From assembly GCF_003752135.1 (NCBI RefSeq), contig NZ_RJVK01000002.1, positions 248,001 through 312,000 of the forward strand: a DNA stretch of 64,000 nt, written 5' to 3'. The notes beneath the pieces are model-generated. The model was given only the letters and a program-made list of their open reading frames with translations. It searched no databases and was not told the origin of the DNA. Positions 22,059 to 37,821 of this stretch are shown piece after piece. The DNA comes from Caminibacter pacificus. Lineage in GTDB: Bacteria; Campylobacterota; Campylobacteria; Campylobacterales; Nautiliaceae. The position numbers were made by a program, and so were the translations under genes. The number at the start of each line of letters is the position of its first letter. Within the stretch, counting starts at the first letter, position 1.

Positions 22059-23000
22059 ATGAAAAGACTTTACACTTTTGGTAAATATTTAAAAAAGAAA
22101 TTCAAAACGAATGTAAAAAAAGTCCCTATTTCAATACCGGGATTTACTTGTCCTAATATTGACGGGACGGTAGCAAGAGGAGGCTGTGTTTTTTGTGAAA
22201 ACGAAAGTTTTTCACCCAACTTCACAAAAGAAAAATTTACTCTAAATTTGCAATCTCAAGAAAATCCTCTGCTTGAAAAACAGCTGAAATCTTTAGAATT
22301 TCAATTTTTTAACACCGTACCTTCTTTAAAAAAATATTACAACGCAAAAAAATTTATTGTATATTTTCAAAGCTTTACAAACACATACGCACCTTTTGAA
22401 ACCTTAAAAGCTTTATACGAAAAAGCACTCTCTTTTCCTGATGTAATCGGAATAAGTGTAGGCACAAGAACGGACTCGATAACTGATGAAACATTGGAAT
22501 ATCTTAAAAAACTTAGTGAAAAATACGAAGTTTGGGTTGAATACGGTATCCAAACAAGTAACGACGAAACTCTAAAAAAAATTAATAGAGGACATGATTT
22601 TCAAAACGTAGTAGAAACTATCACAAAAACCAAAAAATTGGGACTTAACGTTTGCGGTCATCTTATTTTCGGATTCCCGGGAGAAACACAAAAAGATATG
22701 CTAAAAAGCGTAGAAGACTCCATAAAACTCAATATCGATTCGATTAAATTTCATCCTTTATACGTTACGGAAAATACACTTTTAGCTCTTGAATACAAAA
22801 AAGGAAACTTCACTCCTATAACTGAAGAAGAGTATATCGATACACTCGTAAAATCTATAAAAATGCTGCCTGAAAATATATCTATCCAAAGAATGACTGC
22901 AGGTACCGAGAATCTACTTGCTCCTGAGTGGTGTAAATATAAATCTTCACAAATGAGTCATATTCACAAAGCCTTAAAAAAAGCGGGAATAAGGCTTTAG
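22059..23000 (+). CDS. Radical-SAM protein, YhcC/TIGR01212 type
   Basis: 313 aa. The cluster motif is the extended C-x12-C-x2-C seen in this family (CPNIDGTVARGGCVFC near residues 31-46). QSFTNTYAP near 100, GIQTSNDETLKKINRGHDF near 165 and GHLIFGFPGE near 205 follow the family order. The ATG at 22059 has AAGAAGG upstream. Its exact substrate is not established. Its stop overlaps that of the convergent algK-like gene. Confidence 0.85.
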   Translation: MKRLYTFGKYLKKKFKTNVKKVPISIPGFTCPNIDGTVARGGCVFCENESFSPNFTKEKFTLNLQSQENPLLEKQLKSLEFQFFNTVPSLKKYYNAKKFIVYFQSFTNTYAPFETLKALYEKALSFPDVIGISVGTRTDSITDETLEYLKKLSEKYEVWVEYGIQTSNDETLKKINRGHDFQNVVETITKTKKLGLNVCGHLIFGFPGETQKDMLKSVEDSIKLNIDSIKFHPLYVTENTLLALEYKKGNFTPITEEEYIDTLVKSIKMLPENISIQRMTAGTENLLAPEWCKYKSSQMSHIHKALKKAGIRL

Positions 23001-25264
23001 TTTAAATAACATTTCGGAGCTCTTTTTGCTCTTTTGTAAATTGAATCGATAACTCTTGCGTTATTTATCCTCTTCATAAGCTCAATAGCAACTTTCGGAG
23101 TTTTCGGAGTATTACATAACATTGCTCTAAAAGCGTAATATAATGCTCTTCTTGGAGCTTTTTTCGAATAAACTTCAGCTTTTGCAAGAAGCAGATATCC
23201 GTAATTGGTATCGCCGTTTTTTACATATCTGAGATTTCCGGTCAATAGATACAATAAATAACTTGCTTTCGGATTGTTAGGCATACTTTTTAAAATTCTC
23301 AAAGCTTTTTGTTTTTCGTTTTGTGAAATATAAAATTTCGCAAGTTTGATTTTCGCATTTTTTAATCCGGCATTAATCGCTTCATTATAAAGAGAGACGA
23401 TTTTATTATTATATTTTCCGTTTACGTTTATTTTTTCATATAAAGCGGCAATATTTAAAATAGCCGGCTTATAGCCTTTGTTTATAGCTTTTTGGTAATA
23501 CTCTTCAGCTTTTTTAGGGTCAAAATCAACATACCAGCCGTTAGCATACACTCTTGCAAGTACCAAATCCGATTGAAGTGAGTCGTCTTTTTCCAATGCA
23601 TTTAAAGCTTTTTTATAATCTCCGTCAATATATCTCTCAAGAACAGAAGTATAATATAACGCCTCTCCTTTTTTATCCGCTTCTTTTACAAGAGTATCGA
23701 GCCATGTTTTTAATTTATCGTAATTACAATGATTTTTATAGAACTTAGAAATATAAAGCTGTGCTTGTCTGTTTTTCATTTGAGCGTAATAATAATTGAT
23801 AGTTAAAGCTTTATTTTCGTTTTTTAATACGTCGTTATCATAGTTTGCAATTTTTAAGTCTTCACTCGGAATATAAAAAGGCTTTTTCTCTAAAATACAG
23901 GCTTGCTTGTAATAATCTATGCTTTTTGTTTTAGGCGTTAAAATTTCTCTTGAATACAAACTTCCAAGATAATTTAAAGCCAAAATATTGCCTTGATTAG
24001 CATAATATTCAAGCACTTTTTTATTGTTTTGTATATCTTTATTTTGAATTGACATTTGATATGCCATTTCCACAATTGCCGGTACGAATTTTTTCTCTAC
24101 CAAATAACTTAAAAGTTCCAAATCCACCCTGTTTTCAAATCTTTTTTCATATTGATAAAGATGCCAGTCGGCTTGAAGTTTATTGATTTTTTCATACCAT
24201 TTATAAATTTCTTTAGCTTTTTTATATGAGTTCAGATAAAGATATTTTTCATATATTTTTGCAAGTATCAATTTAGATTCGACGTCATTTTTAGATTTTA
24301 AATATGAAACCGCTCCTTTTAAATCAAATCCGCTATAGGTTTCAGGAGTAAGTTCGAAAGTATTATCTTCAATATCAAGCCTTATGAGCTGATATAATGC
24401 TTTTTTATTTCCGAGTTTATAAGAAATATCATAAGCTTTTTTTACATTTTTTCTTGTAAACAGGTCGTTATACTTATAAATCGTAAGTTTTTTTACGAAA
24501 AAATCTTCCGGAGTATCAAACCCGCAAGTAATACATCCGCTATTTAAAAGTTTTTCTTTTGTAATCATTTCATCATATAGATAGTTACCAAGATAATACG
24601 CCGCTCTTTTATCTTTATATGCGACATCTTTTAAAATCTCATAACCTTCTTGTTTTTTTCCATTTTTAATATAAAAAATACCAAGCACAACTCCTGCTTG
24701 ATAATAGCCTTTATCGTATGCTTTTTGTAATAATTTTTCAGCTCTTTGAGGATTATAAAAAGGTGACTCTTGTAAATAATATTTTCCTAAAATAGTTTGA
24801 AGTTTCGGATTGTCGGATTTTTGTGCGTAAGCGTTTAATTTATCCAGATAGGCAACTTTTTCTTTGATATTATCAAGACTCTCGACACAAGTCAGATAAT
24901 TTTCGAAATCTCTTATTCTGAATTTATCAAAAGATACTTTGTCATACCATTTCAAAGCTTCTTTATAATTTTTTTCTCTAAAATAAGAATCGGCAACATA
25001 CAAAGCCGCATCATTGTAGCCGTTTTTATATGCTATAAGAGCATATTTCCTCTCTATATAAGGCGGTTTGTTTACTTTATTGAAATAAATTAACCTTGCA
25101 ACTTTATCGGCTGCGTCAGGAAAACCTCTTTTTGCAAATTTATAATATTCCTCATAAGCTTTTTCATAATTTTTGCTTTTATAGTAATTGCTTGCAATTC
25201 TTTTGTCCGCACAGCCGACAAAAAAAATAAGCGATACACCGGCTATTAATCCAAATACTCTCAT
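22997..25264 (-). CDS. algK: AlgK-like TPR/Sel1 lipoprotein of alginate export
   Basis: 755-aa lipoprotein: the signal peptide ends in the lipobox FVGC (Cys about residue 18). The rest is a long series of Sel1/TPR-like helical repeats (for example ALKWYDKV, AEKLLQKAYDKGYYQAGVVLGIFY, AEEYYQKAINKGYKPAILNIAALYEK). AlgK of Pseudomonas is a TPR lipoprotein of about 475 aa that supports AlgE in the outer membrane; this one is much longer. ATG at 25264 is preferred over an in-frame TTG 18 nt upstream because GGGGA precedes it. Last gene of the alginate-type operon, 8 nt after the algE-like gene. The assignment relies on architecture and context more than on motif. Confidence 0.72.
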   Translation of the reverse strand: MRVFGLIAGVSLIFFVGCADKRIASNYYKSKNYEKAYEEYYKFAKRGFPDAADKVARLIYFNKVNKPPYIERKYALIAYKNGYNDAALYVADSYFREKNYKEALKWYDKVSFDKFRIRDFENYLTCVESLDNIKEKVAYLDKLNAYAQKSDNPKLQTILGKYYLQESPFYNPQRAEKLLQKAYDKGYYQAGVVLGIFYIKNGKKQEGYEILKDVAYKDKRAAYYLGNYLYDEMITKEKLLNSGCITCGFDTPEDFFVKKLTIYKYNDLFTRKNVKKAYDISYKLGNKKALYQLIRLDIEDNTFELTPETYSGFDLKGAVSYLKSKNDVESKLILAKIYEKYLYLNSYKKAKEIYKWYEKINKLQADWHLYQYEKRFENRVDLELLSYLVEKKFVPAIVEMAYQMSIQNKDIQNNKKVLEYYANQGNILALNYLGSLYSREILTPKTKSIDYYKQACILEKKPFYIPSEDLKIANYDNDVLKNENKALTINYYYAQMKNRQAQLYISKFYKNHCNYDKLKTWLDTLVKEADKKGEALYYTSVLERYIDGDYKKALNALEKDDSLQSDLVLARVYANGWYVDFDPKKAEEYYQKAINKGYKPAILNIAALYEKINVNGKYNNKIVSLYNEAINAGLKNAKIKLAKFYISQNEKQKALRILKSMPNNPKASYLLYLLTGNLRYVKNGDTNYGYLLLAKAEVYSKKAPRRALYYAFRAMLCNTPKTPKVAIELMKRINNARVIDSIYKRAKRAPKCYLN

Positions 25265-25272
25265 CTTTTCCC

Positions 25273-27033
25273 CTATTTCCAATAATATCTATAATTAACA
25301 AAAATTCTGTATGCGTTTTTTTCACTCAAATAATTGAAAGCATCTCCGCCTAAGAAATACCCGGCTCCGATTTTTAATTTTTGTTTTTTGGTTGTGTTAT
25401 ATTGATATACCAAGTCGATTTCATTTCCGATATCTTTGCTTTTTCCGTTAGTAGGATAAAAATACTTAGTATTGAATTGAACTTTTTTCTTAACGTCTTG
25501 ACGATAATTATGCAATGAAGCGATTAGTGCGGCTTTCGGATTAAAGTCATATATTCCGTATAAAGAAATAATATGTAAATTTTCAAGTACAGGATTTAAA
25601 ACGTTTCCGTAGTATCTAAACGAAAAACTTTTATTTAGATAATCGGAGTTGTTCGTTGCAATATACGGCTGAGTAAAATAGTGACTTCCGCTACCGAAAG
25701 CATAACTTGCCGCATATGAAAGTTTTTGTGAATACGGAGCTCTAAAGCCGATATCAAAACCATACCCGTCACTTCTGTTGGTTTTGGTATATTTATTTAT
25801 TTTACCGCCGCTATATCCAACATTTAGCCAATAAAATAGATTTTTTTCAAATCCGTTTAAGTCCACACCCAAAAACGATAGTTTTCTATTTTTAATATAC
25901 CCGTCATTAGGTTTTGAATGCTCGTAAATATAATAAAAACCTACGTTTTTTCTGTAATAATATTCATAATTCGTATGTAAAATAAAAAAACTCGAATGTT
26001 TTAATTTTGATTTTGGAGAGTTATCATCCGTAATCGTTTCGTTATTTATCCTTGTGGCTGCAATCAACTGATAAGTTAAAAGATTGTTTTCATTAAACAC
26101 CATTATCTCATCAAGAGGCGCATCATACCACCAAGACCTAAAATCTTTTGTTTTTTTACGACCGATTAAGATATTCGCCATATCGCAATTTAAACAATAA
26201 CTTCTAATATAAAGTTCATTTATATCTAAATAAGCGTCAAAAGAGACATCTCCACTTGAATTTTTTCTGGAAAGAATAATTCTGTCATCAGTAAAAAATT
26301 TCCAATTATTCCAAAAGAATTTTTCATATATAATCCCAAGTTTTATATTTTCACTATCTCCATAAAGCCTTGAAGTGTATTTTTGTCCTTGATATAAGTT
26401 ACCATATACATCCCAATAAAAAATATAATTTGAAACGGATGGATATTTACATGTAAAAATATTATTATTTTTTTGAGTAGAGCTGTTATTATTTTCTGAC
26501 GTTACTTTTACTACTTTTAATGATATATTATTTTCATTTTTTAAATAGTCTTTAACTTCAATATGTATAGAACTTAAAACTTTTGTTTTATTTACTTCCC
26601 ACGAATAATTTTTTTTCGTATTACATCCGCATTCACCTTTGCAATATATAAGCCAATTATTCTTTTTTTTGATAGCAACAGGAGTTATATAACTTGCGGA
26701 TAATTTATTTTTAGGCTTTACAACTTTTACGAAATGTTCTTTATTTTTAGGATACAAAACAATACCCAAATTAGGATTATAAGGGATAATTAACGGATAT
26801 TTATAATATTTTTTTACTTTTTTAAGATACTCTTTTGCTGCTTTATAGCTTTTGAACGGTTCTATTTTATATTCCACGAATCTCGTATATTGTTTAACAA
26901 TTCCGTTTGGAAAACGCTTAATAAATTTTTGAGCCGCTTTTTTATCAAATGTCTTAGTACTAAATGCAATAATAGAATACTCTTTTGCAAAAGCAAAAAG
27001 AGAAATGATTAATATTAAAATTACCTTTTTCAT
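25273..27033 (-). CDS. algE: AlgE-like outer-membrane alginate export porin with N-terminal SPOR-like domain
   Basis: 586 aa. Signal peptide (about 1-17), then a short repeat domain of about 70 residues beginning EYSIIAFS that closely matches the C-terminal domain of the Alg44-like protein. A linker with CKGECGC follows, and from about residue 210 to the end a beta-barrel region. The barrel contains RSWWYDAPLDEIM near residue 300, matching the conserved WWYD segment of AlgE in my memory, and ends in FVNYRYYWK. The ATG at 27033 (AGGAG 5 nt before) shares one base with the algG stop. AlgE of Pseudomonas (about 490 aa) forms the alginate-selective channel; the N-terminal addition is new to me. 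Confidence 0.82.
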   Translation of the reverse strand: MKKVILILIISLFAFAKEYSIIAFSTKTFDKKAAQKFIKRFPNGIVKQYTRFVEYKIEPFKSYKAAKEYLKKVKKYYKYPLIIPYNPNLGIVLYPKNKEHFVKVVKPKNKLSASYITPVAIKKKNNWLIYCKGECGCNTKKNYSWEVNKTKVLSSIHIEVKDYLKNENNISLKVVKVTSENNNSSTQKNNNIFTCKYPSVSNYIFYWDVYGNLYQGQKYTSRLYGDSENIKLGIIYEKFFWNNWKFFTDDRIILSRKNSSGDVSFDAYLDINELYIRSYCLNCDMANILIGRKKTKDFRSWWYDAPLDEIMVFNENNLLTYQLIAATRINNETITDDNSPKSKLKHSSFFILHTNYEYYYRKNVGFYYIYEHSKPNDGYIKNRKLSFLGVDLNGFEKNLFYWLNVGYSGGKINKYTKTNRSDGYGFDIGFRAPYSQKLSYAASYAFGSGSHYFTQPYIATNNSDYLNKSFSFRYYGNVLNPVLENLHIISLYGIYDFNPKAALIASLHNYRQDVKKKVQFNTKYFYPTNGKSKDIGNEIDLVYQYNTTKKQKLKIGAGYFLGGDAFNYLSEKNAYRIFVNYRYYWK

Positions 27034-29648
27034 CAATTCTCCTGCATTAATTCGTGAATTTGTTTTTTGGAAACTTTGTGAAGTCTATATTCGTTTATTA
27101 ATTTCAAATATTGATCGATATAAGGATTTAAAACTTTTATCATTTTACTTCTTTCGGTTTGATAATATTGATCTAAACTATCCCTAATCCTTTTTAGTCT
27201 AATAGATACAAGCTTGCAATCCGGCGAATCTTTTATTAACTGATTTTCTTTTAATAATTTTCGGTAATACGCTTTTTTAGGTTCATTCGCCTTTGCAAAA
27301 ATATAATGTATCTTTTTTATAATTTTAGGAGTAAAAATAGTAAAATCCTTCAAAGGTAAACTGCAATATTCAAAATAATCTTTAGCACCCGAATGTTTAA
27401 ATTTATAATTAAAAATTTTCCAAGCACTCTCGATCTTAGCTTTTTTTCTATCATCAATTTTACAAGCCGAACTGTAAATATCATCAACAACTTTATAATT
27501 TTTTAATCTATTTAAAGCAATTTCAAAGGCTTTATTTATATCGTTTTTATCTACAGGCACGACATAAGGAATTTGAGAAATATCAATTTTAGCTCTACTA
27601 TTTCCAAAAATAATACTTTGAGCGATATAACTTATTGCGTTTATATACTCTTTTTTAGTATTTGCTTTTGATAAAAGAAAATATCCATACGAACTCATAT
27701 CGTTAGGATATAATTGAGAAATACCTCTAATATATTCTTTTTGAGCCATATACTGATTTTTATATTTTGAAACATATAATTTTCCTAACATTTCAGAAAC
27801 AAAATCGTTATTACACGAAGCGTCAATAAATATTTTTCTCGCTTCATCAACAACTTTTTTACTCATCCTGATTTCATCAATACTTCTCGCTCTAAAAGGA
27901 TTTCCTATTCCATATAATTTAAACTTACCGTGATTTTTATCGATTTTAGAGGTAAATATATTTAAATCCCCACCGAAATTCGGATAATATTTATTTCTTA
28001 ATTCATTATCTTTTAGATAAACAGCGGCATTATTCTTAACTACAATACTATAAAAAATATTATCGATTATTTTGTTATCTTCCACAACAGCCGCAGTTGC
28101 TTTATGATAAGGATCCCTAGCAAAATTTCTATAAATCATACCGTCAATATTTTTCGTTAAAACTTCAACTCCGTTTTTTGCATTGTATGCTATATAATTA
28201 TCAAGAACACTGATTCTTAAAGAGTTTCTGATAATTATTCCGTCTATTTTATTACCGATTAAATAATTTTTATAAACAAGAACATCATCACTTTCTTGTA
28301 TGGAAACTCCCATATAACCATTAATAGCCGATAGATTATCAAAAATATAATTATAATTTGATAATCTATCTAGCATAATTCCGGCCGAATGGTTATTGAA
28401 AGAAAAATTTTGAGCGATAATAGTATGATTTACTTGTCTTGAAATAACAATTCCATGAGCATGTTTTGCTTTAGCGGTAATATTTCTCGCAATAATCAAA
28501 CCTTCGGAATAATCATGAGGGTCAATATTATAAATCAAATTATCATACATCAAATTTCCAATTATTGCCGTATTTTTGGCTTCGGAACAATAAAATCCCA
28601 TCATATTATCAACCATTGTATTACCTATGTAATATCCTTTTGGTAATCCTCTTTGATTTAAAAAAGTGAATAAATTGTATTTATTTACGATTAAATCTTT
28701 AGGAAAATGTAACAAAGCTATTCCGAAAGTAGCCGAAGTTGAATGAAATCCCAATCCTTTAAAATAGTTATTTATAAAATACGTTTTTGAACCGGTAAGT
28801 CCGATAAAATATGGTCTAGGTTTTTGAAGTCCTATTAATAACAACTCTTCTTCAGGTATATGTTCTCTTTTATCGTAATTATTATCTTTTAAATTCCACG
28901 TTATAAATTTAGAATTTTTTGCGTAAATATCACCATGATACATGATAAAAACAGGTTTCGGGGTAGTTTCTAAAAGAAGGGTTTTATTATTCACTACCAA
29001 TTTAGCGGTAGGAGAAATATATAGCGGAACTTTTAAAATATAAGTTTTATCGTCAATCTTTTTTAAGATACTAGGATTATGTATTTTCTGATAAAGATAA
29101 TCAATTGAATAAACACCGTTATAAAGCACCATTACTTTTGTAGAAAGATTATGCTTTCTATAAAATCTATAAAAATCATACAAGTTTACGGTAGGCATAA
29201 AAGTGATTTTCGTAATATCAATAAAATCGATTCCATTACCGTAAAATTTAGTAGGAAAGTTTTTTTCTAATATTTGGGGTTTAAATTTAGAGATTATTTT
29301 ATTGACATTTTTAGGTTTTACCGTTGAAGTTGTAGGGAAAATTACATATTGGTCTTTAAAAGTTACATTGTGTTCAACAATTTTAGGAGTTACGAAATTA
29401 AACTTTAAATGGTGTAGTGTATAATTTGCTTCTTTATATGTTTTGTAACATCCTACATAAGAAAGATTATTATCCCAAACAATTCTATCATCCAATAAAT
29501 TACATTTAACTTCTCTAAAATTAGGATTATCTCTAAAGTTATACGGATAAACAGGAGTAAAAAGTCCTGTTTGTGTCAATATGGAATAACATTTACCCGC
29601 ATAAAGCGTTATAACCGCTGTTAATAAAACAAATAACTTTTTAGTCAT
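27033..29648 (-). CDS. algG: AlgG-like mannuronan C5-epimerase with long C-terminal extension
   Basis: 871 aa, secreted (signal peptide KKLFVLLTAVITLYAG). A central right-handed beta-helix holds the catalytic DPHD motif at residues 376-379 inside NIDPHDYSEGLIIARN, the signature of periplasmic AlgG, which converts mannuronate to guluronate in the polymer. Residues about 20-100 resemble a divergent SPOR-like repeat. After the helix (about residue 600) comes some 270 residues of alpha-helical, TPR-like sequence absent from the 540-aa Pseudomonas enzyme. Start overlaps the alg44 stop by 8 nt. The extension might supply a scaffold function, since no algX is present. Confidence 0.88.
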   Translation of the reverse strand: MTKKLFVLLTAVITLYAGKCYSILTQTGLFTPVYPYNFRDNPNFREVKCNLLDDRIVWDNNLSYVGCYKTYKEANYTLHHLKFNFVTPKIVEHNVTFKDQYVIFPTTSTVKPKNVNKIISKFKPQILEKNFPTKFYGNGIDFIDITKITFMPTVNLYDFYRFYRKHNLSTKVMVLYNGVYSIDYLYQKIHNPSILKKIDDKTYILKVPLYISPTAKLVVNNKTLLLETTPKPVFIMYHGDIYAKNSKFITWNLKDNNYDKREHIPEEELLLIGLQKPRPYFIGLTGSKTYFINNYFKGLGFHSTSATFGIALLHFPKDLIVNKYNLFTFLNQRGLPKGYYIGNTMVDNMMGFYCSEAKNTAIIGNLMYDNLIYNIDPHDYSEGLIIARNITAKAKHAHGIVISRQVNHTIIAQNFSFNNHSAGIMLDRLSNYNYIFDNLSAINGYMGVSIQESDDVLVYKNYLIGNKIDGIIIRNSLRISVLDNYIAYNAKNGVEVLTKNIDGMIYRNFARDPYHKATAAVVEDNKIIDNIFYSIVVKNNAAVYLKDNELRNKYYPNFGGDLNIFTSKIDKNHGKFKLYGIGNPFRARSIDEIRMSKKVVDEARKIFIDASCNNDFVSEMLGKLYVSKYKNQYMAQKEYIRGISQLYPNDMSSYGYFLLSKANTKKEYINAISYIAQSIIFGNSRAKIDISQIPYVVPVDKNDINKAFEIALNRLKNYKVVDDIYSSACKIDDRKKAKIESAWKIFNYKFKHSGAKDYFEYCSLPLKDFTIFTPKIIKKIHYIFAKANEPKKAYYRKLLKENQLIKDSPDCKLVSIRLKRIRDSLDQYYQTERSKMIKVLNPYIDQYLKLINEYRLHKVSKKQIHELMQEN

Positions 29649-31236
29649 TCTTTTTCACTTTACATTTGATGATAAAAGCATCTTTATAATATTTTTTTAC
29701 ATTATTTAAAACATAACTTTTTGCTTGTTTATAAGAATCAAACGATTCAATTTTAATCTCATAAATTTTTCCGACCTTTACTACTTTTGCATTGGTAAAT
29801 TTATTTAAAAACTCTTTTGATTTTCTATCGTTAAACGGTCTAGGAGATGAAGCCGCAATTATGCAATACTTATTTTCATACACAACTTCTTGTGTTTCTT
29901 GTTGTGTTTGGGGTTCATTATTAGTTTGTACTTCTGCAACTTCTTTTTCTTTTGTTTCTTCTGTTAGAGTTTTTTCATTATTTGTAGTTTCTTGAACGTT
30001 TTTTTCTTTCTGAATCTCATTGTTAATTTCATTTGCGTTATTGTCATCAGCTTTAAAATTTTCTTGAGCCTGTTCGTCTTGATTTTGAGATTCAGTTACT
30101 TGCTTTTTTTCAGGCTCACTTGAAGTTTGTTTTTCTTCTTTGATTGAATACCAGTCGTATTTATTTAACAAAGTATCGATAGTAATAACGGCACTTGTAC
30201 TTATTAAATCCGTAGAAGGTTTGTAATTAATTGGTTTTAAAATTACTTTATCGTAATTTCTTGCCTGGTTATAAATATTTTCAAGCGGTCTTGCGTGTTC
30301 TTCTACAACGTTATAAGGAAACTCTATTTTTGAAACTCTTGCATAAAATCTATCACCGTTAGGAAGTTGAACTTTCGCAATATCTCCGATTCTTATTTTC
30401 ACCAAATCTTTATGTAAAACGTTTGCAACTATATAAATTTCATAATTTTTTTCAAGGACGGCAAAAACAGGCTCACCCACATTTCTGAAATCTCCGTTAT
30501 GAATCATAATTTTAAAAATCGTTCCGTTAAGAGGTGATTTTACAACTTTCACACCTCCGTACATAATATGAGCATACATCAACACTTCGCTCGTATTTAC
30601 TTCTTGATTTACTTTAAAATCTTTTGCAAACTCTATATATGAAGGAGATGGTGCTCTAATAATTGTCATATTGGCATCAAAAAATGCGTTTTCACTTTTT
30701 ACGATATAAATTCTTTGGTACATTACGAAAAGTAAAAATAATATTAAAACTATTACGAAAAACCATAAAAGTAATAAGACCAAAATTGATTTTTTCTTAT
30801 CGACTTTCGGTTTGGTTTCTTTCTTTTCCATAAAATTAGCACGAGTTACCGCATGGATAATATCATCTTCAGTAACAATATCACCAGCTAAATATGCAGA
30901 AATAATTTGGTTTAAAATCGCTATTTGCTGAGGAGTAAGCTCTGTAAATCTTGCTCCGACTACCCCATCAGGTCTTTTAGATACGAATTCCAAATGCAGG
31001 TTATCAATAACGGTTTCGAAGTCATCGAATTTAAATATCATTTTTGCAACCACATGTTTTTTATTATAAATTTCATCCGGAAGTCCTATAATTCCCACCC
31101 CAGAAACAGACCAATCGTAAACTTTATATTTTTTACCTTCTATTTCTATAGTTGCCGGAATTTTATATCTTGCATGCTGTCTCGTTATTTCCGCTTCATG
31201 AACTATCTGTTTTGCTTTATCCGTATATTGTGCCAT
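29641..31236 (-). CDS. alg44: Alg44-like c-di-GMP receptor and periplasmic adaptor with C-terminal SPOR-like domain
   Basis: 531 aa. The N-terminal cytosolic PilZ domain has RQHAR (R19-R23) and DWSVSGVG (D41), the c-di-GMP-binding pattern. A membrane helix is near residues 150-172. The periplasmic part is HlyD-like (VNQEVNTSEVLMYAHI, SPLNGTIFKI). A long Glu/Asn/Gln-rich linker (about 365-450) follows, and a final 70-residue SPOR-like domain starts YCIIAASS. Pseudomonas Alg44 (389 aa) lacks this tail. PilZ binding of c-di-GMP activates polymerisation with Alg8. ATG at 31236 has AGGAGAAAGTT before it. Confidence 0.9.
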   Translation of the reverse strand: MAQYTDKAKQIVHEAEITRQHARYKIPATIEIEGKKYKVYDWSVSGVGIIGLPDEIYNKKHVVAKMIFKFDDFETVIDNLHLEFVSKRPDGVVGARFTELTPQQIAILNQIISAYLAGDIVTEDDIIHAVTRANFMEKKETKPKVDKKKSILVLLLLWFFVIVLILFLLFVMYQRIYIVKSENAFFDANMTIIRAPSPSYIEFAKDFKVNQEVNTSEVLMYAHIMYGGVKVVKSPLNGTIFKIMIHNGDFRNVGEPVFAVLEKNYEIYIVANVLHKDLVKIRIGDIAKVQLPNGDRFYARVSKIEFPYNVVEEHARPLENIYNQARNYDKVILKPINYKPSTDLISTSAVITIDTLLNKYDWYSIKEEKQTSSEPEKKQVTESQNQDEQAQENFKADDNNANEINNEIQKEKNVQETTNNEKTLTEETKEKEVAEVQTNNEPQTQQETQEVVYENKYCIIAASSPRPFNDRKSKEFLNKFTNAKVVKVGKIYEIKIESFDSYKQAKSYVLNNVKKYYKDAFIIKCKVKKND

Positions 31237-31245
31237 AACTTTCTC

Positions 31246-32763
31246 CTATAACCAGTTTAAATATGCCCAAAGATCATCAAAATTGATGTTTTGAACTAAA
31301 AAATTAATAATAATAATGAAAAACAACAACTGCAATAAAAGCATGGTATTCGAACTAAACCTTTGATACCATGCAATAAATCTGCTACCTGCCGCAAGTT
31401 TCGTTTTTTGTCTGGTCCAAGACTGTTTATATAAATGATTCCAAATATAAATTTTTACAAATGAACCAACTATCTGATTGTAATATAAGAAAAACGGCCA
31501 ACTCGGTAAAATATCTTTTCTGGAAGTTCGGTAAGCAAATGTCATTAATAATCTACTTAACATTACCCACCAAATATAAGCCGCAAAAATATACGCTCCC
31601 CAATGTATCGACCCAAATATCGCTATAAATAATCCATAAGGTGAAGTCCACATTGTAAATCGTTGATCCCAAAGAGCGTACCATGCATACCATCCAAGTA
31701 TTTTTCTCGGTATTTTAAGAGCCCTTTCGTTTGTCCTATATTGGTTACCAAACCATCTTTGCATAAGCATTATAGAACCGATAAAATAATTTTTATGAGG
31801 AATTTCTTCAATCGTATAAACTATTACATCCGGTACATAAAGCATATCCCAACCGTTTTTAATAACATAATACCAACTCGACTTATCATCACCCGTTAAG
31901 AACTTAAATCTTCCGAGTCTCCAATGTTCGATATAATCGTTTTGTACAGTATTTACAAACTCTCTATCGGCTACGATATTTGCTCTTATCATAGACATAC
32001 GACCCGTTAATGTCAAAACTCTATTGGAAAGAGCAAGAGACCCCATTGTAACGTTTCTTTGAGCAAATCTTAACCTATACCATCTTCTGTAAATATTAGT
32101 CGCTCTATCTTTTCCGTCAAGTCTTGCGTCTTCATCCGTAGTTAAAGCCCCTAAATTATCGTTTAAGCCGAATAATCTTGCAGATTTTTTAATAACTCCT
32201 TCACCTAAAATAGAATCCCCATCAACAACGGCAACTACGGATTTATAAAGATTGACAGGAGCGTTTGCCACTACTCTAAATCCTACCGCAAGACCGTCTC
32301 TTTTTCCGGTACCTTTAATTCTTGTGATTACGGGTTTGACCCTCTCAGGCGGATTCATCTCTAAAAATATTTTTCTAACAAGTCTCTCTTCAGACATTTC
32401 AACAATAGATGCAATCAGCGTAACATCATATCCGCAATTGATAGCCTCTTGAATAGCAGCTCTGTAAACTTCAACTGAAACACTCGTACCGATTCTAAAC
32501 GTAGTAATCAAAATAAATACATGTTCCGGATCTATTTCACTTCCTGCCTGTTGTTCCTCTTTTCTTATTCTCTTAAATTTAATCTTTCTATAGATTAAAG
32601 AACGAGTAATATTCAAGAAAAACCAAGAATATCTCCAAATCCCCACCAGACCCAAAAAGAAAATTAACTGTCTGGCATAAGGATCGAATTCCTTATAAGG
32701 AATAAGAAAACCGAGAATTACGACAACAAGGATATAAATCAGAAAAAAAAGAAACGTTTTCAC
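31246..32763 (-). CDS. alg8: Alg8-like mannuronan synthase (GT2)
   Basis: 505-aa processive family-2 glycosyltransferase in the inner membrane. Two N-terminal membrane helices, cytosolic GT domain with DGDS at 181-184 and TGDD at 288-291, the QRW-type motif (QRWFGNQYR) at 333-341, and four or so membrane spans at the C-terminus. Close in design and length to Pseudomonas Alg8 (494 aa), which polymerises GDP-mannuronate. GTG start, 28 nt after algD; the ribosome site may be AAAAGGA about 10 nt upstream. Confidence 0.93.
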   Translation of the reverse strand: MKTFLFFLIYILVVVILGFLIPYKEFDPYARQLIFFLGLVGIWRYSWFFLNITRSLIYRKIKFKRIRKEEQQAGSEIDPEHVFILITTFRIGTSVSVEVYRAAIQEAINCGYDVTLIASIVEMSEERLVRKIFLEMNPPERVKPVITRIKGTGKRDGLAVGFRVVANAPVNLYKSVVAVVDGDSILGEGVIKKSARLFGLNDNLGALTTDEDARLDGKDRATNIYRRWYRLRFAQRNVTMGSLALSNRVLTLTGRMSMIRANIVADREFVNTVQNDYIEHWRLGRFKFLTGDDKSSWYYVIKNGWDMLYVPDVIVYTIEEIPHKNYFIGSIMLMQRWFGNQYRTNERALKIPRKILGWYAWYALWDQRFTMWTSPYGLFIAIFGSIHWGAYIFAAYIWWVMLSRLLMTFAYRTSRKDILPSWPFFLYYNQIVGSFVKIYIWNHLYKQSWTRQKTKLAAGSRFIAWYQRFSSNTMLLLQLLFFIIIINFLVQNINFDDLWAYLNWL

Positions 32764-32791
32764 CCTTTTTTCATCCTTTTCCCCTTATTTT

Positions 32792-34108
32792 TTAAACTAT
32801 TCTAAAATAGTTCCCTTGTGATATTCTATCCTCGATTGCTGCTACGTCGATAATAATTTTATCTTTATATTTATCAGCTAATCCTTTAAATCGGTTATCT
32901 TTATTTCCAATTACTAAAATTTCTGAGCTATCAATTACTTCTTGGAGATTATCGGTGAGTCTTTCATTGATATGATGAAGTTCGGTTTCTAAAAATTCTT
33001 TTGCAGCCCCCTCTTCTCTTGCTTTAACTACATTTTCGTCAAAAATTTTAACAAAATATCCTTTACCAATCAATGTCTCAGTAAGCTCAAGTATCGGAGA
33101 TTCTCTTAAATCATCGGTTCCGGCTTTAAAACTAAGACCTAAAATACCGACTTTTTTCTTTCTTAAAGGTTTAATAAAATGATTAAAAACTCTTTTAATT
33201 TGATATTCGTTACTTTCCATTAAAGAGTTTAAAAGAGGTGTTTTTTCATCAACTTCTTTAGCTTTATAAGTTAAAGCCTTAACATCTTTTGGTAAACAAC
33301 TACCTCCGAACGCAAATCCCGGAGTTAAATAATAACAAGAAATATTAAGCTTTCTATCGGCACAAAAGATTTTCATCACTTTATGAGAATCAATTCCGAG
33401 TCTTGAACAAATCATACCTATTTCGTTACCGAAAGTAACTTTTACGGCATGCCAAGAATTATCAGCATATTTAACCATTTCCGCAGTTTCTATTTCCGTT
33501 TTGAAAAGAGGTGCTTCGTTTGTATCTATAAAAGAGTACAACTCTTCCAAAGTATTTGCAGTTTTTTCGTCACTTGCACCGATAACTGTTTTTGGAGGAT
33601 GATAAAAGTCCCAAATTGCCGTACTTTCTCTTAAAAATTCAGGATTTGAAGCATATCCAAAATCAACACCTACTTTTTTACCTGAATTTTCTTCAATAAT
33701 CGGAATTACAACACCTTTTCCCGTACCAGGTAAAACGGTGCTTCTCATAACTACGATATGAAAATCTTTTTTATCTTTTAAGACTTCACCTATTGATTTT
33801 GCCGCTTCTTTGATATATTTTAAATCGATACTTCCGTTTTCTCTTGAAGGAGTACCTACAGCAATAAAAGTAATATCACTATTTTCGATAGCTTCTTTAA
33901 GATTGGTTGTAGCTCTAAGTCTACCTTCTTTTACGTTTTTTTCAATTAAAACGTCAAGGTCTTTTTCCACTATAGGAGATTTTCCTTCGTTAATTAATTC
34001 CACTTTCGTTTTATCGATATCCATACCGATAACTTGATGCCCTTCGTTAGCTAACGCTGCGCTACATACGGCACCGACATACCCAAGTCCCACTACTGAT
34101 ATTCTCAT
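32792..34108 (-). CDS. algD: GDP-mannose 6-dehydrogenase AlgD
   Basis: Oxidises GDP-mannose to GDP-mannuronate, the committed step of alginate synthesis. NAD loop VVGLGYVGAV at residues 5-14, VGTPS at 84-88, and the catalytic thiol C271 in FGGSCLPKDV. 438 aa, against 436 for Pseudomonas AlgD. UDP-glucose dehydrogenases share these motifs, but the neighbours algA and alg8 decide for GDP-mannose. AAAGGATTAAC precedes the ATG. Confidence 0.93.
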   Translation of the reverse strand: MRISVVGLGYVGAVCSAALANEGHQVIGMDIDKTKVELINEGKSPIVEKDLDVLIEKNVKEGRLRATTNLKEAIENSDITFIAVGTPSRENGSIDLKYIKEAAKSIGEVLKDKKDFHIVVMRSTVLPGTGKGVVIPIIEENSGKKVGVDFGYASNPEFLRESTAIWDFYHPPKTVIGASDEKTANTLEELYSFIDTNEAPLFKTEIETAEMVKYADNSWHAVKVTFGNEIGMICSRLGIDSHKVMKIFCADRKLNISCYYLTPGFAFGGSCLPKDVKALTYKAKEVDEKTPLLNSLMESNEYQIKRVFNHFIKPLRKKKVGILGLSFKAGTDDLRESPILELTETLIGKGYFVKIFDENVVKAREEGAAKEFLETELHHINERLTDNLQEVIDSSEILVIGNKDNRFKGLADKYKDKIIIDVAAIEDRISQGNYFRIV

Positions 34109-34109
34109 G

Positions 34110-34823
34110 TTAATCCTTTACGGTTAATTTTTTAAATAATACTTTTGCACAACCATCGTCTTGCAAATAGACGCCGGCTTTAAAATAGTTGTAATATTTC
34201 CCCCAATAACCGACATCCATATTCACCTTTTCCACACCGTTAACAAAAATCTTCAAGACATTTTTATAAACCGATATTTTAACATCAAAAAACGATTTTG
34301 GCATAACTCCCAAATCAATCTTTTGATAGCGACTGAAAATATCGTCCCCCAATCTTATTATCGCCCAAATATGGCTCCTTTTTCCTTTTAGCTTTTTATA
34401 CCAAACCACTCTTAAAAGAGGTTTGTTTATAGTAGGCATATTTTTTAAAGTACTATCCGCATGTATTTGTAAAAAAGTAAACTCTTTTTTTTCATCAAGC
34501 GGAAAAAGTTTAACTTCCGCTTCCATTTCTTTTTTATTTTCAGTGCCTACTTTCCATATGTTTTTAAACCTAAGCTCGCTTCTATTATGATTACCACACA
34601 TATAAAAAACCATATATTTTCTATCTTGCAGATAAAAATACTTATTTGAATAATCTGCAAAATCCCCGTATTTTCTACTATATAAAGGGTTGAAAGAACT
34701 CTTGGGCGCTTGAAGTTTGGAAATTTCAAGGACCGGTTTAAACTTATCCAAAGAATACGGAGAATCGTGAGCTAATAACAACGTTGTAAAAAAGAAAAAA
34801 ATTACCTTCTTAAATTCTGCCAT
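34110..34823 (-). CDS. PL7-family alginate lyase
   Basis: 237 aa with a short signal peptide (VIFFFFTTLLLAHD). It carries all three hallmark motifs of polysaccharide lyase family 7: RSELR at 81-85, QIH at 119-121 (catalytic His), and YFKAGVYLQ at 213-221 (catalytic Tyr). Pseudomonas uses a PL5 lyase (AlgL) in its operon for periplasmic clearance or trimming; here a PL7 enzyme occupies that role. ATG at 34823 with GAGG upstream; overlaps the algA end by 14 nt and abuts algD. Confidence 0.92.
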   Translation of the reverse strand: MAEFKKVIFFFFTTLLLAHDSPYSLDKFKPVLEISKLQAPKSSFNPLYSRKYGDFADYSNKYFYLQDRKYMVFYMCGNHNRSELRFKNIWKVGTENKKEMEAEVKLFPLDEKKEFTFLQIHADSTLKNMPTINKPLLRVVWYKKLKGKRSHIWAIIRLGDDIFSRYQKIDLGVMPKSFFDVKISVYKNVLKIFVNGVEKVNMDVGYWGKYYNYFKAGVYLQDDGCAKVLFKKLTVKD

Positions 34824-36198
34824 AATCATCCTCGATTCTTACTATATCGTCTTCACTTAAATATTCACCCACTTGCACTTCGATTATTTCAAGAGGTATT
34901 TTGCCCGGATTTGCAAGTCTGTGAATTTCCCCTATCGGAATATAAGTGGATTCGTTCGGTCTTAAAAGAAATGTTTTATCTCCAATAGTAACTTCAGCAA
35001 TTCCGCTTACTACCACCCAGTGTTCGCTTCTATGAAAATGTTTTTGTAACGAGAGTCTTTTACCCGGATTTACCGTAATAATTTTTACTTTAAAATTCGG
35101 TGCGTCTTCTAGATTTATGTATTTACCCCAAGGTCTATAAACCGTTCTTCCGAATTTTACAACTTCGGGATTGATTTTTTTCAAAACTTTTACAATATCT
35201 TTTACTTTTTGCCCGTTACCTCTTTTTGTTACTAATAAAGCGGTAGGAGTATCAACTATTATCATATCGTCTATATCGTTTATCGCAATTTGTTTTTTAT
35301 ATCTTCCGAAAACCAAGTTATTTTTAGAATTTAATGCTAATAGTTTTTCATTTTTAGTATTTCCGTTTTCATCTTTTGGTAAAACTTCGTATAAAGCGTC
35401 AAAGTCTCCTACGTCTTTCCAATCGATATCCGATTTTACCATTTTAATTTTTTTACTATGTTCCATTACGGCATAATCTATACTCTCGTCTCTAATCTCA
35501 AGCATATCCTCTTTTTTAATTCTCATAAAATCGCGTTTTTTAATATGTTTACACGCATTTTTAACCGCTTCATAAATATCCGGAGCATATTTTTTAAGTT
35601 CATTCAAATATACTCCCGCTTTAAACATAAACATTCCGCTATTCCAATAATAATTACCTTCTTCAAGATACTTTTTAGCCGTCTTTTCATCCGGCTTTTC
35701 TTTAAAAGACTCCACATCACAAATATCGTTATTACAATTTTTTACTTTTATATATCCGTATCCGGTTTTAGGAGCGTTAGGAGTAATACCAAAAGTAATC
35801 AAATACCCTTTTTTCGCTTCTTCATATGCTGCTTTAATAGCTTTTTCATAGTGTTCGTCATCTTTTATCAAATGATCCGATGGTGTTACGAACAGAACTT
35901 CTTCTTCATCGACACTAAAGGCCGCAAAAGCGATAGAAGCGGCGGTATTTCTTCCTATAGGTTCGATAATAGAGATATAATCTTCAAGCTTAATTTCATC
36001 TAATTGATCCAAAGCCATAAAATATTGATTTTCATTTGAAACTAAAACAAATTTATTGCTATATTTTCTATTTCTCTCAACAGTGAGTTGAAAAAGAGAT
36101 TTTCCATCAAACATTTTTAAAAATTGTTTCGGCAAATTTTCTCTACTTACAGGCCAAAGTCTTGTCCCGCTCCCCCCACACAATATAACATTTGTCAT
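34810..36198 (-). CDS. algA: Mannose-1-phosphate guanylyltransferase / mannose-6-phosphate isomerase
   Basis: 462-aa bifunctional AlgA/ManC enzyme giving GDP-mannose. The nucleotidyltransferase signature GGSGTRLWPVSRENLPKQF is at the N-terminus and VEKPDEKTA-like SFKEKPDE near residue 165; the C-terminal cupin with KHFHRSEHWVVVSG near 395-408 is the isomerase domain. ATG at 36198 is chosen because GGGGA lies 5 nt before it; two upstream in-frame starts lack this. First gene of the alginate-type operon, directly behind a good promoter. Confidence 0.94.
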   Translation of the reverse strand: MTNVILCGGSGTRLWPVSRENLPKQFLKMFDGKSLFQLTVERNRKYSNKFVLVSNENQYFMALDQLDEIKLEDYISIIEPIGRNTAASIAFAAFSVDEEEVLFVTPSDHLIKDDEHYEKAIKAAYEEAKKGYLITFGITPNAPKTGYGYIKVKNCNNDICDVESFKEKPDEKTAKKYLEEGNYYWNSGMFMFKAGVYLNELKKYAPDIYEAVKNACKHIKKRDFMRIKKEDMLEIRDESIDYAVMEHSKKIKMVKSDIDWKDVGDFDALYEVLPKDENGNTKNEKLLALNSKNNLVFGRYKKQIAINDIDDMIIVDTPTALLVTKRGNGQKVKDIVKVLKKINPEVVKFGRTVYRPWGKYINLEDAPNFKVKIITVNPGKRLSLQKHFHRSEHWVVVSGIAEVTIGDKTFLLRPNESTYIPIGEIHRLANPGKIPLEIIEVQVGEYLSEDDIVRIEDDYGRI

Positions 36199-36293: not shown

Positions 36294-36860
36294 ATGAATA
36301 GATTCAACAAAGACGCTATCACTTGGGACGACTTACCAAGAAGAGTAGAACTTGCAAAAAAAGTAGTACAAAACGTCAAACCTTTTGTCAAAAACAAAAA
36401 AGTACTCGAATTCGGTTGCGGTACGGGACTTGTAGGTATCAACATAGCCGATGTTACGAAAGAACTGATAGGAATAGATACTTCTGAGAAAATGGTAGAA
36501 AAATTTAACGAAAAAGCAAAAAAATTAAACTTAAACGCAAAAGCTTTTGTTAAAAATATTTTTGAAGAAAATGATAAATATGACGCAATAGTAAGCTCTA
36601 TGACGATTCATCATATAAAGGATATAAAAAAACTAAGCAAAAAATTATATGAATTAACAAATATCGTTTTTATTGCGGATTTAGTAAAAGAAGACGGAAC
36701 GTTTCACACAAGAGGAAACGAAGACGTTGAACATTTCGGTTTTTCTATAGATGAGCTAAAGGACTATTTTAGCGAATGGAAAATGGATTATAAAATAATC
36801 CATACAATAAAAAAACACAAAGATTTCGACGTATTTTTAATCACTCTTCAAAAAAAGTAA
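36294..36860 (+). CDS. Class I SAM-dependent methyltransferase
   Basis: 188 aa. SAM-binding motif I VLEFGCGTGLVGI near residues 42-54, acidic motif II ELIGIDTSEKMV, and motif IV DAIVSSMTIHHI near 100. The N-terminus AITWDD resembles small methyltransferases of unknown substrate. Divergent from algA; AAAAGGTGCC precedes the ATG. It overlaps the convergent GGDEF gene by 20 nt. Confidence 0.82.
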   Translation: MNRFNKDAITWDDLPRRVELAKKVVQNVKPFVKNKKVLEFGCGTGLVGINIADVTKELIGIDTSEKMVEKFNEKAKKLNLNAKAFVKNIFEENDKYDAIVSSMTIHHIKDIKKLSKKLYELTNIVFIADLVKEDGTFHTRGNEDVEHFGFSIDELKDYFSEWKMDYKIIHTIKKHKDFDVFLITLQKK

Positions 36861-37821
36861 CCTTATTTCTTCTATTCTTGGAAATATAAAGGGCATTGTC
36901 GGCTAAATTAAAACTTTTTTGCAAATCACCCTCATAATTTGCAAGACCGATAGATACGGAAACTTTAATCCCCTTATACGGTGATAATTCGAGCCTTTTA
37001 TAAAACTCTTCAACCCATTTATCCAAATCGTCTTTTTTTGCGTTGATAAACAATACTACAAATTCATCTCCGCCAAATCTCCCAATAATATCATCTTTTC
37101 TAAGAGAATTTTTTAATATTTTCACAAAATGCCTTAAATATTCATCCCCGAATTCATGCCCGTAAGTATCGTTTATTTTTTTAAAATAATCCAAATCAAA
37201 AACTCCTAAAACTCCTTTTTTATCCAAAATTTCCTGCATAAATCCTCTTCTGTTTAAAACATTAGTCAAATAATCGGTTTTCGCCTGTACGTCCAGTTTT
37301 TTTTGTTCTTCTAAAACTTTTTTTTCGTATGTTTGCATTTGAGTAATAAAAAACCAGCTGATAGAGGCTACCATTAAATCCGAAATAACATAAGCGACAT
37401 AATCTTGAAAAGTTATCGGAAAAAATCCTTTTTCGTAAGCTACATACATTAAAACGATAGAATAAATCGCTACTGCAGTTCCTATTTTTTTATCCGCATA
37501 TAAATATATGAAAGGCAAACTGGCAATAAACCAAAAACTCCGGTATATAACATGATTGTTAAAAAAGAAAATAAGTGTTATCATAAAAATAATACTAAAG
37601 GTAAGTATATAAGCAAAAGTTTTATATGTAATTTTTTTCAATTTATAAGAAAAATAAAACAGTAAATCCGTAATAACAAATATTAATTCCACTTTCAAAA
37701 GAGGCTTATATATTAAAAAAATTCCGAAATAAGCACCGATAAAATAAAAAATACTAATACACAAAAAAAGAAAAAAAGATATATGAATAGTCTCTTCTCT
37801 AAATTTTTCTAATGAAAACAT
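36841..37821 (-). CDS. Membrane-bound diguanylate cyclase (GGDEF)
   Basis: 326 aa. About six hydrophobic segments fill residues 10-165, followed by a short coiled coil (YEKKVLEEQKKLDVQ) and a GGDEF domain. The active site GRFGGDEF is near residue 248, and RKDD five residues earlier is an intact product-inhibition I-site. Makes c-di-GMP. It lies about 640 nt upstream of the alginate-type operon on the same strand, separated by the opposing methyltransferase gene, so it is a candidate source of the signal read by Alg44. Confidence 0.9.
   Translation of the reverse strand: MFSLEKFREETIHISFFLFLCISIFYFIGAYFGIFLIYKPLLKVELIFVITDLLFYFSYKLKKITYKTFAYILTFSIIFMITLIFFFNNHVIYRSFWFIASLPFIYLYADKKIGTAVAIYSIVLMYVAYEKGFFPITFQDYVAYVISDLMVASISWFFITQMQTYEKKVLEEQKKLDVQAKTDYLTNVLNRRGFMQEILDKKGVLGVFDLDYFKKINDTYGHEFGDEYLRHFVKILKNSLRKDDIIGRFGGDEFVVLFINAKKDDLDKWVEEFYKRLELSPYKGIKVSVSIGLANYEGDLQKSFNLADNALYISKNRRNKVTFFEE

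Follow-up and report, generated by a model that had tools for sequence, protein, structure and literature searches.

Eight genes resembling those for alginate production lie in the window, the whole 64,000-nucleotide stretch of Caminibacter pacificus DNA analysed here, and raise the question whether a member of the Campylobacterota encodes an alginate machine that manages without AlgX. Known producers that have lost AlgX, AlgK or AlgG by mutation yield only lyase-cut oligomers (PMC4444821), and the AlgK-AlgX complex has been described as vital (PMC9734138). Judged from its sequence, the operon in the window is a natural alginate-type system without AlgX, and it very probably directs c-di-GMP-controlled synthesis and secretion of a non-acetylated poly-M/G alginate.

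Organization of the operon

Between 36198 and 22997 the minus strand carries eight open reading frames arranged head to tail, and the contiguous same-strand genes reported in a preliminary description of this DNA were thus all found in place. In order of transcription they are algA, a PL7 lyase gene, algD, alg8, alg44, algG, algE and an algK-like gene. Successive gaps or overlaps are -20, 1, 28, 9, -8, -4 and -10 bases, the largest spacing between neighbours being 28 bases and all others closer or overlapping. The GC content of the operon is 0.30 versus 0.354 in the rest of the window. Scans for promoters and terminators gave about as many sites as in shuffled sequence. The host belongs to the same family as Nautilia profundicola but to a different genus, which agrees with its earlier placement as a probable vent epsilonproteobacterium.

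In Pfam and NCBIfam family searches algA, the lyase and algE exceeded curated cut-offs, and the remaining five genes fell below specific models, matched general models or had no model. Chance resemblance is ruled out by independent family or structure matches for each gene together with the recurrence of this gene order in further genera. An alginate-type system can be assigned with high certainty from these comparisons: the best solved-structure relatives of AlgD, AlgG, AlgE and the Alg44 PilZ domain are alginate proteins, the nearest Alg8 relatives found outside the phylum lie in alginate-type clusters, the gene order is kept in five genera and the catalytic motifs are invariant. The alginate-type exopolysaccharide proposed at the outset is therefore supported by profile and PDB comparisons, and the motifs then noted are present, namely DGDS and TGDD (as TGDDKS) in Alg8, DPHD in AlgG and WWYD (as RSWWYD) in AlgE.

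Precursor supply and polymerization

The product of algA (34810-36198, minus strand, start ATG at 36198) matched NCBIfam TIGR01479 with 572 bits against a cut-off of 373, and also had a Pfam match. Among the loci read, algA adjoins the operon only in the host genus and in L015. Two phosphohexomutase genes in the genome could be a source of mannose-1-P. The neighbouring algD (32792-34108, minus strand) encodes a GDP-mannose 6-dehydrogenase with the motif GGSCLPKD, which aligned to GDP-mannose dehydrogenase 1mfz with 506 bits. The runner-up in the PDB was a UDP-glucose dehydrogenase with 261 bits, and we rejected this function for AlgD on the strength of that comparison.

The alg8 gene (31246-32763, minus strand) is assigned to a processive GT2 mannuronan synthase (Pfam Glyco_tranf_2_3, 1e-31) carrying the motifs DGDS, TTDE and TGDDKS. 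Neither a solved structure in the PDB search nor a curated NCBIfam model matched Alg8, and the lack of a solved relative counts against the alginate reading. In a plasmid search the nearest sequences were GT2 synthases of Rhizobium and roseobacters (37-44%). The nearest relatives found outside the phylum (38-42%) lie within alginate-type clusters with a D-8 gene pair on plasmids of Rhizobium sp. T1473 and Loktanella salsilacus, and share DGDS, TTDE, TGDDKS and LMxRWFGN with Alg8 of the window. The Rhizobium homologue is flanked by homologues of AlgD, Alg44 and AlgG; downstream of that of Loktanella come a sugar-phosphate nucleotidyltransferase gene and genes for a beta-helix protein, an MBOAT protein and AlgF. 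A cellulose-type synthase was rejected for Alg8 because the relatives examined outside the phylum reside in such clusters. A better fit of AlgG, AlgE and Alg8 to a non-alginate system, which the preliminary description had named as the outcome that would speak against alginate, was looked for and not found, given that the nearest Alg8 relatives identified outside the phylum are inside alginate-type clusters.

The alg44 gene (29641-31236, minus strand) encodes a cytoplasmic PilZ domain, a transmembrane helix, a HlyD-like periplasmic domain and a genus-specific C-terminal tail. In a profile comparison with the PDB the best solved match of the N-terminus was the Alg44 PilZ domain 4rt1 (2.1e-9), and both PilZ motifs, RQxAR and (D/N)WSxxG, are kept unchanged across nine Alg44 homologues. 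Alg44 is accordingly described here as a putative c-di-GMP receptor.

Epimerase and export proteins carry additional domains

The algG gene (27033-29648, minus strand) encodes a mannuronan C5-epimerase within an enlarged protein of 871 residues. Its match to NCBIfam AlgG (4.9e-47, 161 bits) lies far below the curated cut-off of 700. The best solved structure was mannuronan C5-epimerase 4nk6 (8.8e-53, profile positions 172-550), and the catalytic DPHD, a motif whose role in AlgG catalysis has been described (PMC4444821), aligns to the DPHD of 4nk6 with the surrounding catalytic strip retained.

The distance of AlgG from its curated family is relevant to the possibility that the operon makes a related uronan, either pure polymannuronate or a mannuronate heteropolymer, with AlgG being structural or acting on another bond. 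Such a product would be in keeping with the roughly 27% identity of AlgG to the homologue of the Rhizobium cluster, with the absence of AlgX and with the fact that polysaccharide specificity cannot be fixed with certainty from a GT2 sequence. We regard it as improbable, given that AlgD is clearly of the GDP-mannose type, AlgG retains DPHD and the catalytic strip, a lyase of the alginate-cutting family PL7 travels with the cluster, and the AlgE barrel matches AlgE only. The product is likely to be alginate with G residues.

AlgG carries extra domains at both ends. The N-terminal domain (29328-29591, minus strand; CYSI...GCY...) is conserved in nine homologues and, in hhalign, matched the AlgE SPOR-like profile described below with a probability of 88.5% over 37 columns; it would be a distant SPOR relative at most. 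At the C-terminus, AlphaFold predicted an all-helical Sel1/TPR-like solenoid of about 290 residues (27036-27905, minus strand; pLDDT 75) which falls outside the region matching Pseudomonas AlgG. Foldseek placed Sel1 proteins at the top, with AlgK 3e4b among the matches and none with an E-value below 0.09. Comparison of the AlgG C-terminus with the AlgK-like profile in hhalign was not significant.

The algE gene (25273-27036, minus strand) encodes an outer-membrane alginate export barrel preceded by a SPOR-fold domain. The barrel, in which the RSWWYD motif was found, matched Pfam Alginate_exp (PF13372) above cut-off (6.7e-22), and in the profile search against the PDB AlgE entries were the sole matches (4afk, 5.9e-24). 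The N-terminal domain (26749-26982, minus strand) was modelled by AlphaFold with a pLDDT of 94 as beta-alpha-beta-beta-alpha-beta, the topology required of a SPOR domain. The model reached TM scores of 0.67 to the CwlC SPOR domain 1x60 and of 0.61-0.62 to the RlpA SPOR domains 6i09/6i05, with Foldseek E-values above 0.1. At the sequence level the AlgE N-terminus stayed under the Pfam SPOR cut-off (E=0.11; 13.2 bits, cut-off 21), and the SPOR-like profile gave no SPOR match among PDB sequences. The domain is present in two tandem copies in Nitratiruptor and in G052. A similar domain forms the C-terminus of Alg44 (29644-29883, minus strand), sharing 45% of 67 aligned residues with the one in AlgE (E=2e-13); among the homologues this tail occurs in the window and in the congener G004 only. 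Foldseek E-values for the SPOR and Sel1 fold matches exceed 0.05, which counts against the proposed reading of the operon. The literature search returned nothing on a SPOR domain in connection with alginate.

The last gene (22997-25282, minus strand; likely start ATG at 25264) encodes a Sel1/TPR lipoprotein with an invariant lipobox GC. With 761 residues against about 450, it is much longer than in Pseudomonas and Azotobacter. Its match to NCBIfam AlgK (4.1e-5) is far below the curated cut-off, and its profile matched AlgK 3e4b in the PDB (1.3e-10), yet generic Sel1 proteins scored better, down to 1e-25. We call the protein AlgK-like largely on account of its gene position. The claim that every core alginate function is present thus stands for the other genes and has to be weakened for AlgK, whose family match is weak and is surpassed by generic Sel1 proteins. 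That both AlgG and the AlgK-like protein lie far below curated cut-offs counts against the alginate reading.

AlgX, AlgJ, AlgI and PL5 lyase are absent

The operon shares with those of Pseudomonas and Azotobacter the supply of GDP-mannuronate, a GT2 synthase with a PilZ co-polymerase, an AlgG epimerase, an AlgE barrel, a TPR lipoprotein and a lyase in the cluster. In contrast to their order algD-8-44-K-E-G-X-L-I-J-F-A, the window has A-lyase-D-8-44-G-E-K, its AlgG is longer with extra domains, SPOR-fold domains are present on AlgE and Alg44, and the lyase is PL7 instead of PL5. AlgX, AlgI and AlgJ were not found, and AlgF is not among the eight operon genes. The ALGX/AlgJ family, the MBOAT acyltransferase family (AlgI) and PL5 AlgL were each searched for in all six carrier genomes with no match. 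The absence of ALGX is meaningful because the same search detected ALGX in the two plasmid records that contain alginate-type clusters: unlike the carriers, the Rhizobium and Loktanella plasmids encode ALGX-family acetylases, and the Loktanella cluster, unlike the window, also has AlgF and MBOAT. A gene order different from that of Pseudomonas had been pointed out before; this is correct, but beyond any rearrangement the genome lacks AlgX, AlgI, AlgJ and AlgL altogether. More important than gene order are the lack of AlgX and acetylation genes and the new domains on AlgG, AlgE and Alg44.

Pseudomonas requires AlgX to produce polymer, and the absence of AlgX from the carriers counts against the alginate reading. 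The absences of AlgX, MBOAT and PL5 and the GC content of the operon relative to the window might also suggest an operon acquired by transfer that has lost its AlgX and acetylation genes and is decaying or non-functional. We consider this very unlikely, as all frames are open, the active sites are invariant and the AlgX-less form is common to five genera, which together argue that this form is stable.

The PL7 lyase

The lyase gene (34110-34829, minus strand) encodes an exported PL7 alginate lyase (Pfam Alginate_lyase2, 4.9e-31; PDB 7w13, 9e-31) with a hydrophobic signal sequence at its N-terminus. The motifs RSELR, QIH and YFKAGVY as well as Cys78/Cys227 are invariant in eight homologues. The preliminary description had correctly listed a lyase in the operon, and was silent on its type, which is PL7 and not the PL5 AlgL of Pseudomonas. 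The enzyme is 58% identical to the lyase of the Nitratiruptor sp. SB155-2 cluster, and the two are orthologues. A lyase of this strain, NitAly, was reportedly characterised by Inoue and co-workers in 2016. NitAly is a polyM-specific PL7 enzyme with an optimum at 70 C (PMC6165035, PMC8286568). The cluster lyase was the sole PL7 match found in the Nitratiruptor SB155-2 genome, and its equation with NitAly rests on the same genome and the same family.

AlgG and a periplasmic lyase are found in the cluster of all alginate-producing bacteria according to a review (PMC4444821), and a housekeeping role has been described for AlgL (PMC8829089). We propose that the PL7 enzyme replaces AlgL in the operon, and by analogy it may have a periplasmic housekeeping role.

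A lyase and a porin might alternatively point to an island for eating alginate. The PL7 lyase in the cluster and a second PL7 gene elsewhere in the genome would fit this possibility, as would the finding that several genomes, N. profundicola among them, have PL7 genes but no operon, which also means that co-occurrence of lyase and operon is not strict. It is nevertheless the least probable of the readings considered and was rejected: the cluster includes a complete synthase, precursor enzymes and an epimerase, the PL15/PL17-type family PF07940 was not found in five of the six carriers, and the organisms closely related to the host are chemolithoautotrophs.

Further PL7 genes were seen outside the window. 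The second PL7 lyase of the host genome (G000:C2:467344-467949; L035:7339-8016) is an apparent lipoprotein encoded alone and 43% identical to the operon lyase. N. profundicola, whose genome is without the alginate operon, encodes one at L034:7678-8379. G104 (family f12) has a PL7 lyase (L032:6006-6704) with 60% identity to that of the operon, on a contig ending where algD would be expected; no Alg8 was found in this assembly, perhaps due to an assembly gap.

Distribution and evolutionary history

A search across Campylobacterota, proposed as a check in the preliminary description, located Alg8 and AlgG in exactly the same 6 of 397 genomes, representing five genera in three families and including Nitratiruptor sp. 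SB155-2 (G036). A seventh Alg8 match among the 397 genomes is distant and belongs to a different system. The order D-8-44-G-E-K with a lyase at either end was seen in all carriers, the K end being lost at contig breaks. The Nitratiruptor SB155-2 cluster is of the same type as the window; unlike the window, it has the lyase after algK, algA is not adjacent, and a kinase and a PP2C phosphatase flank it.

In N. profundicola (G039) and G028, genes for PurF, a radical-SAM protein, a methyltransferase, MBL and RNase Y follow each other in the same order as around the operon, with no operon between them. The operon-free junction is that of the radical-SAM and methyltransferase genes, which in N. profundicola have 38 bases between them. 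The congener G299 has the same operon-free arrangement as far as its contig extends. In G381, a member of the host's family, the radical-SAM gene is closely followed by MBL with no operon there, and the operon is on another contig. Trees of Alg8 and AlgG placed G381, a long branch, with Nitratiruptor and not with the host genus (support 98/99 and 100/99). The empty site, the low GC content and these trees point to horizontal spread of the operon among vent Campylobacterota, loss being the alternative.

A membrane diguanylate cyclase gene (GGDEF) flanks the operon at 36841-37821. It was rejected as a dedicated regulator, since it is also present at the operon-free site of N. profundicola and is not beside the operon in G004. 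The gene predates or is independent of the operon, yet its product could feed the PilZ receptor.

Some loci outside the window deserve mention. Directly before algD in Nitratiruptor are genes for a PP2C phosphatase and a WD40-repeat Ser/Thr kinase (L011:15436-19257, L012:15269-19078), and in G052 genes of the same size as this pair precede algD; control of alginate by phosphorylation is possible in the family of Nitratiruptor. A contig filed as Candidatus Gracilibacteria (L017) encodes an Alg8 about 71% identical to that of the window in a cluster close to a Campylobacterota one, and is probably mis-binned. G356, from another family, encodes a distant Alg8-like GT2 (L014:9342-13420; 33%, 893 residues) with a C-terminal pectate-lyase/epimerase-like PF12708 domain. 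Its neighbours are a PilZ-HlyD protein resembling Alg44 and a cellulose operon (with a PilZ-bearing GT2, BcsB and GH8), and a 246-residue protein nearby has an Alg44-tail-like domain. This GT2 is possibly an unknown uronan synthase.

Proposed mechanism and significance

In the alginate system that we propose, AlgA and AlgD would make GDP-mannuronate, and binding of c-di-GMP by the Alg44 PilZ domain would switch on Alg8, which would polymerise GDP-mannuronate through the inner membrane into polymannuronate. Periplasmic AlgG would convert some residues to guluronate, and the polymer would leave via AlgE, helped by the AlgK-like lipoprotein, and would not be acetylated. Chains straying into the periplasm would be removed by the exported PL7 lyase, as by AlgL in Pseudomonas. 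We hypothesize that the enlarged AlgG, equipped with the Sel1/TPR-like tail, most likely does the work of AlgX, which in Pseudomonas bridges modification and export through AlgK. The predicted SPOR folds suggest, again as a hypothesis, that these domains of AlgE and Alg44 probably anchor the trans-envelope complex at the peptidoglycan. The combined picture, a distinct and horizontally spread machine of vent Campylobacterota that works without AlgX or acetylation, uses AlgG as periplasmic scaffold and docks to peptidoglycan through SPOR folds on AlgE and Alg44, is put forward tentatively and falls just short of being probable.

Parts of this were already known: the alginate system type, NitAly, the suggestion, drawn from raised AlgA, that the Nitrosophilus labii pellicle contains alginate (PMC11539149), and a survey in which atypical alginate operons are reported for deep-sea bacteria (Bundalovic-Torma et al. 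2020, PMC7112194), with the taxa left unnamed in the main-text passages found. The initial remark that no characterised case exists in Campylobacterota therefore holds for the operon itself, but the lyase NitAly has been characterised and alginate had been suspected in N. labii. Relative to the open-licence literature, in which no paper describing them was found, the Campylobacterota operon, its AlgX-less make-up and the added domains are new here.

Pseudomonas cannot run its alginate machine when AlgX is missing, and a naturally occurring, stable form that lacks it offers a simpler test system. How such systems traverse peptidoglycan has been called poorly understood (PMC9734138); with SPOR-fold parts in an AlgX-less version, both the need for AlgX and the crossing of peptidoglycan become testable. 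The operon is also a source of epimerase and synthase parts that are probably thermostable, and points to a possible biological function of heat-stable NitAly. For deep-sea vent chemolithoautotrophs, alginate thereby becomes a testable matrix polymer.
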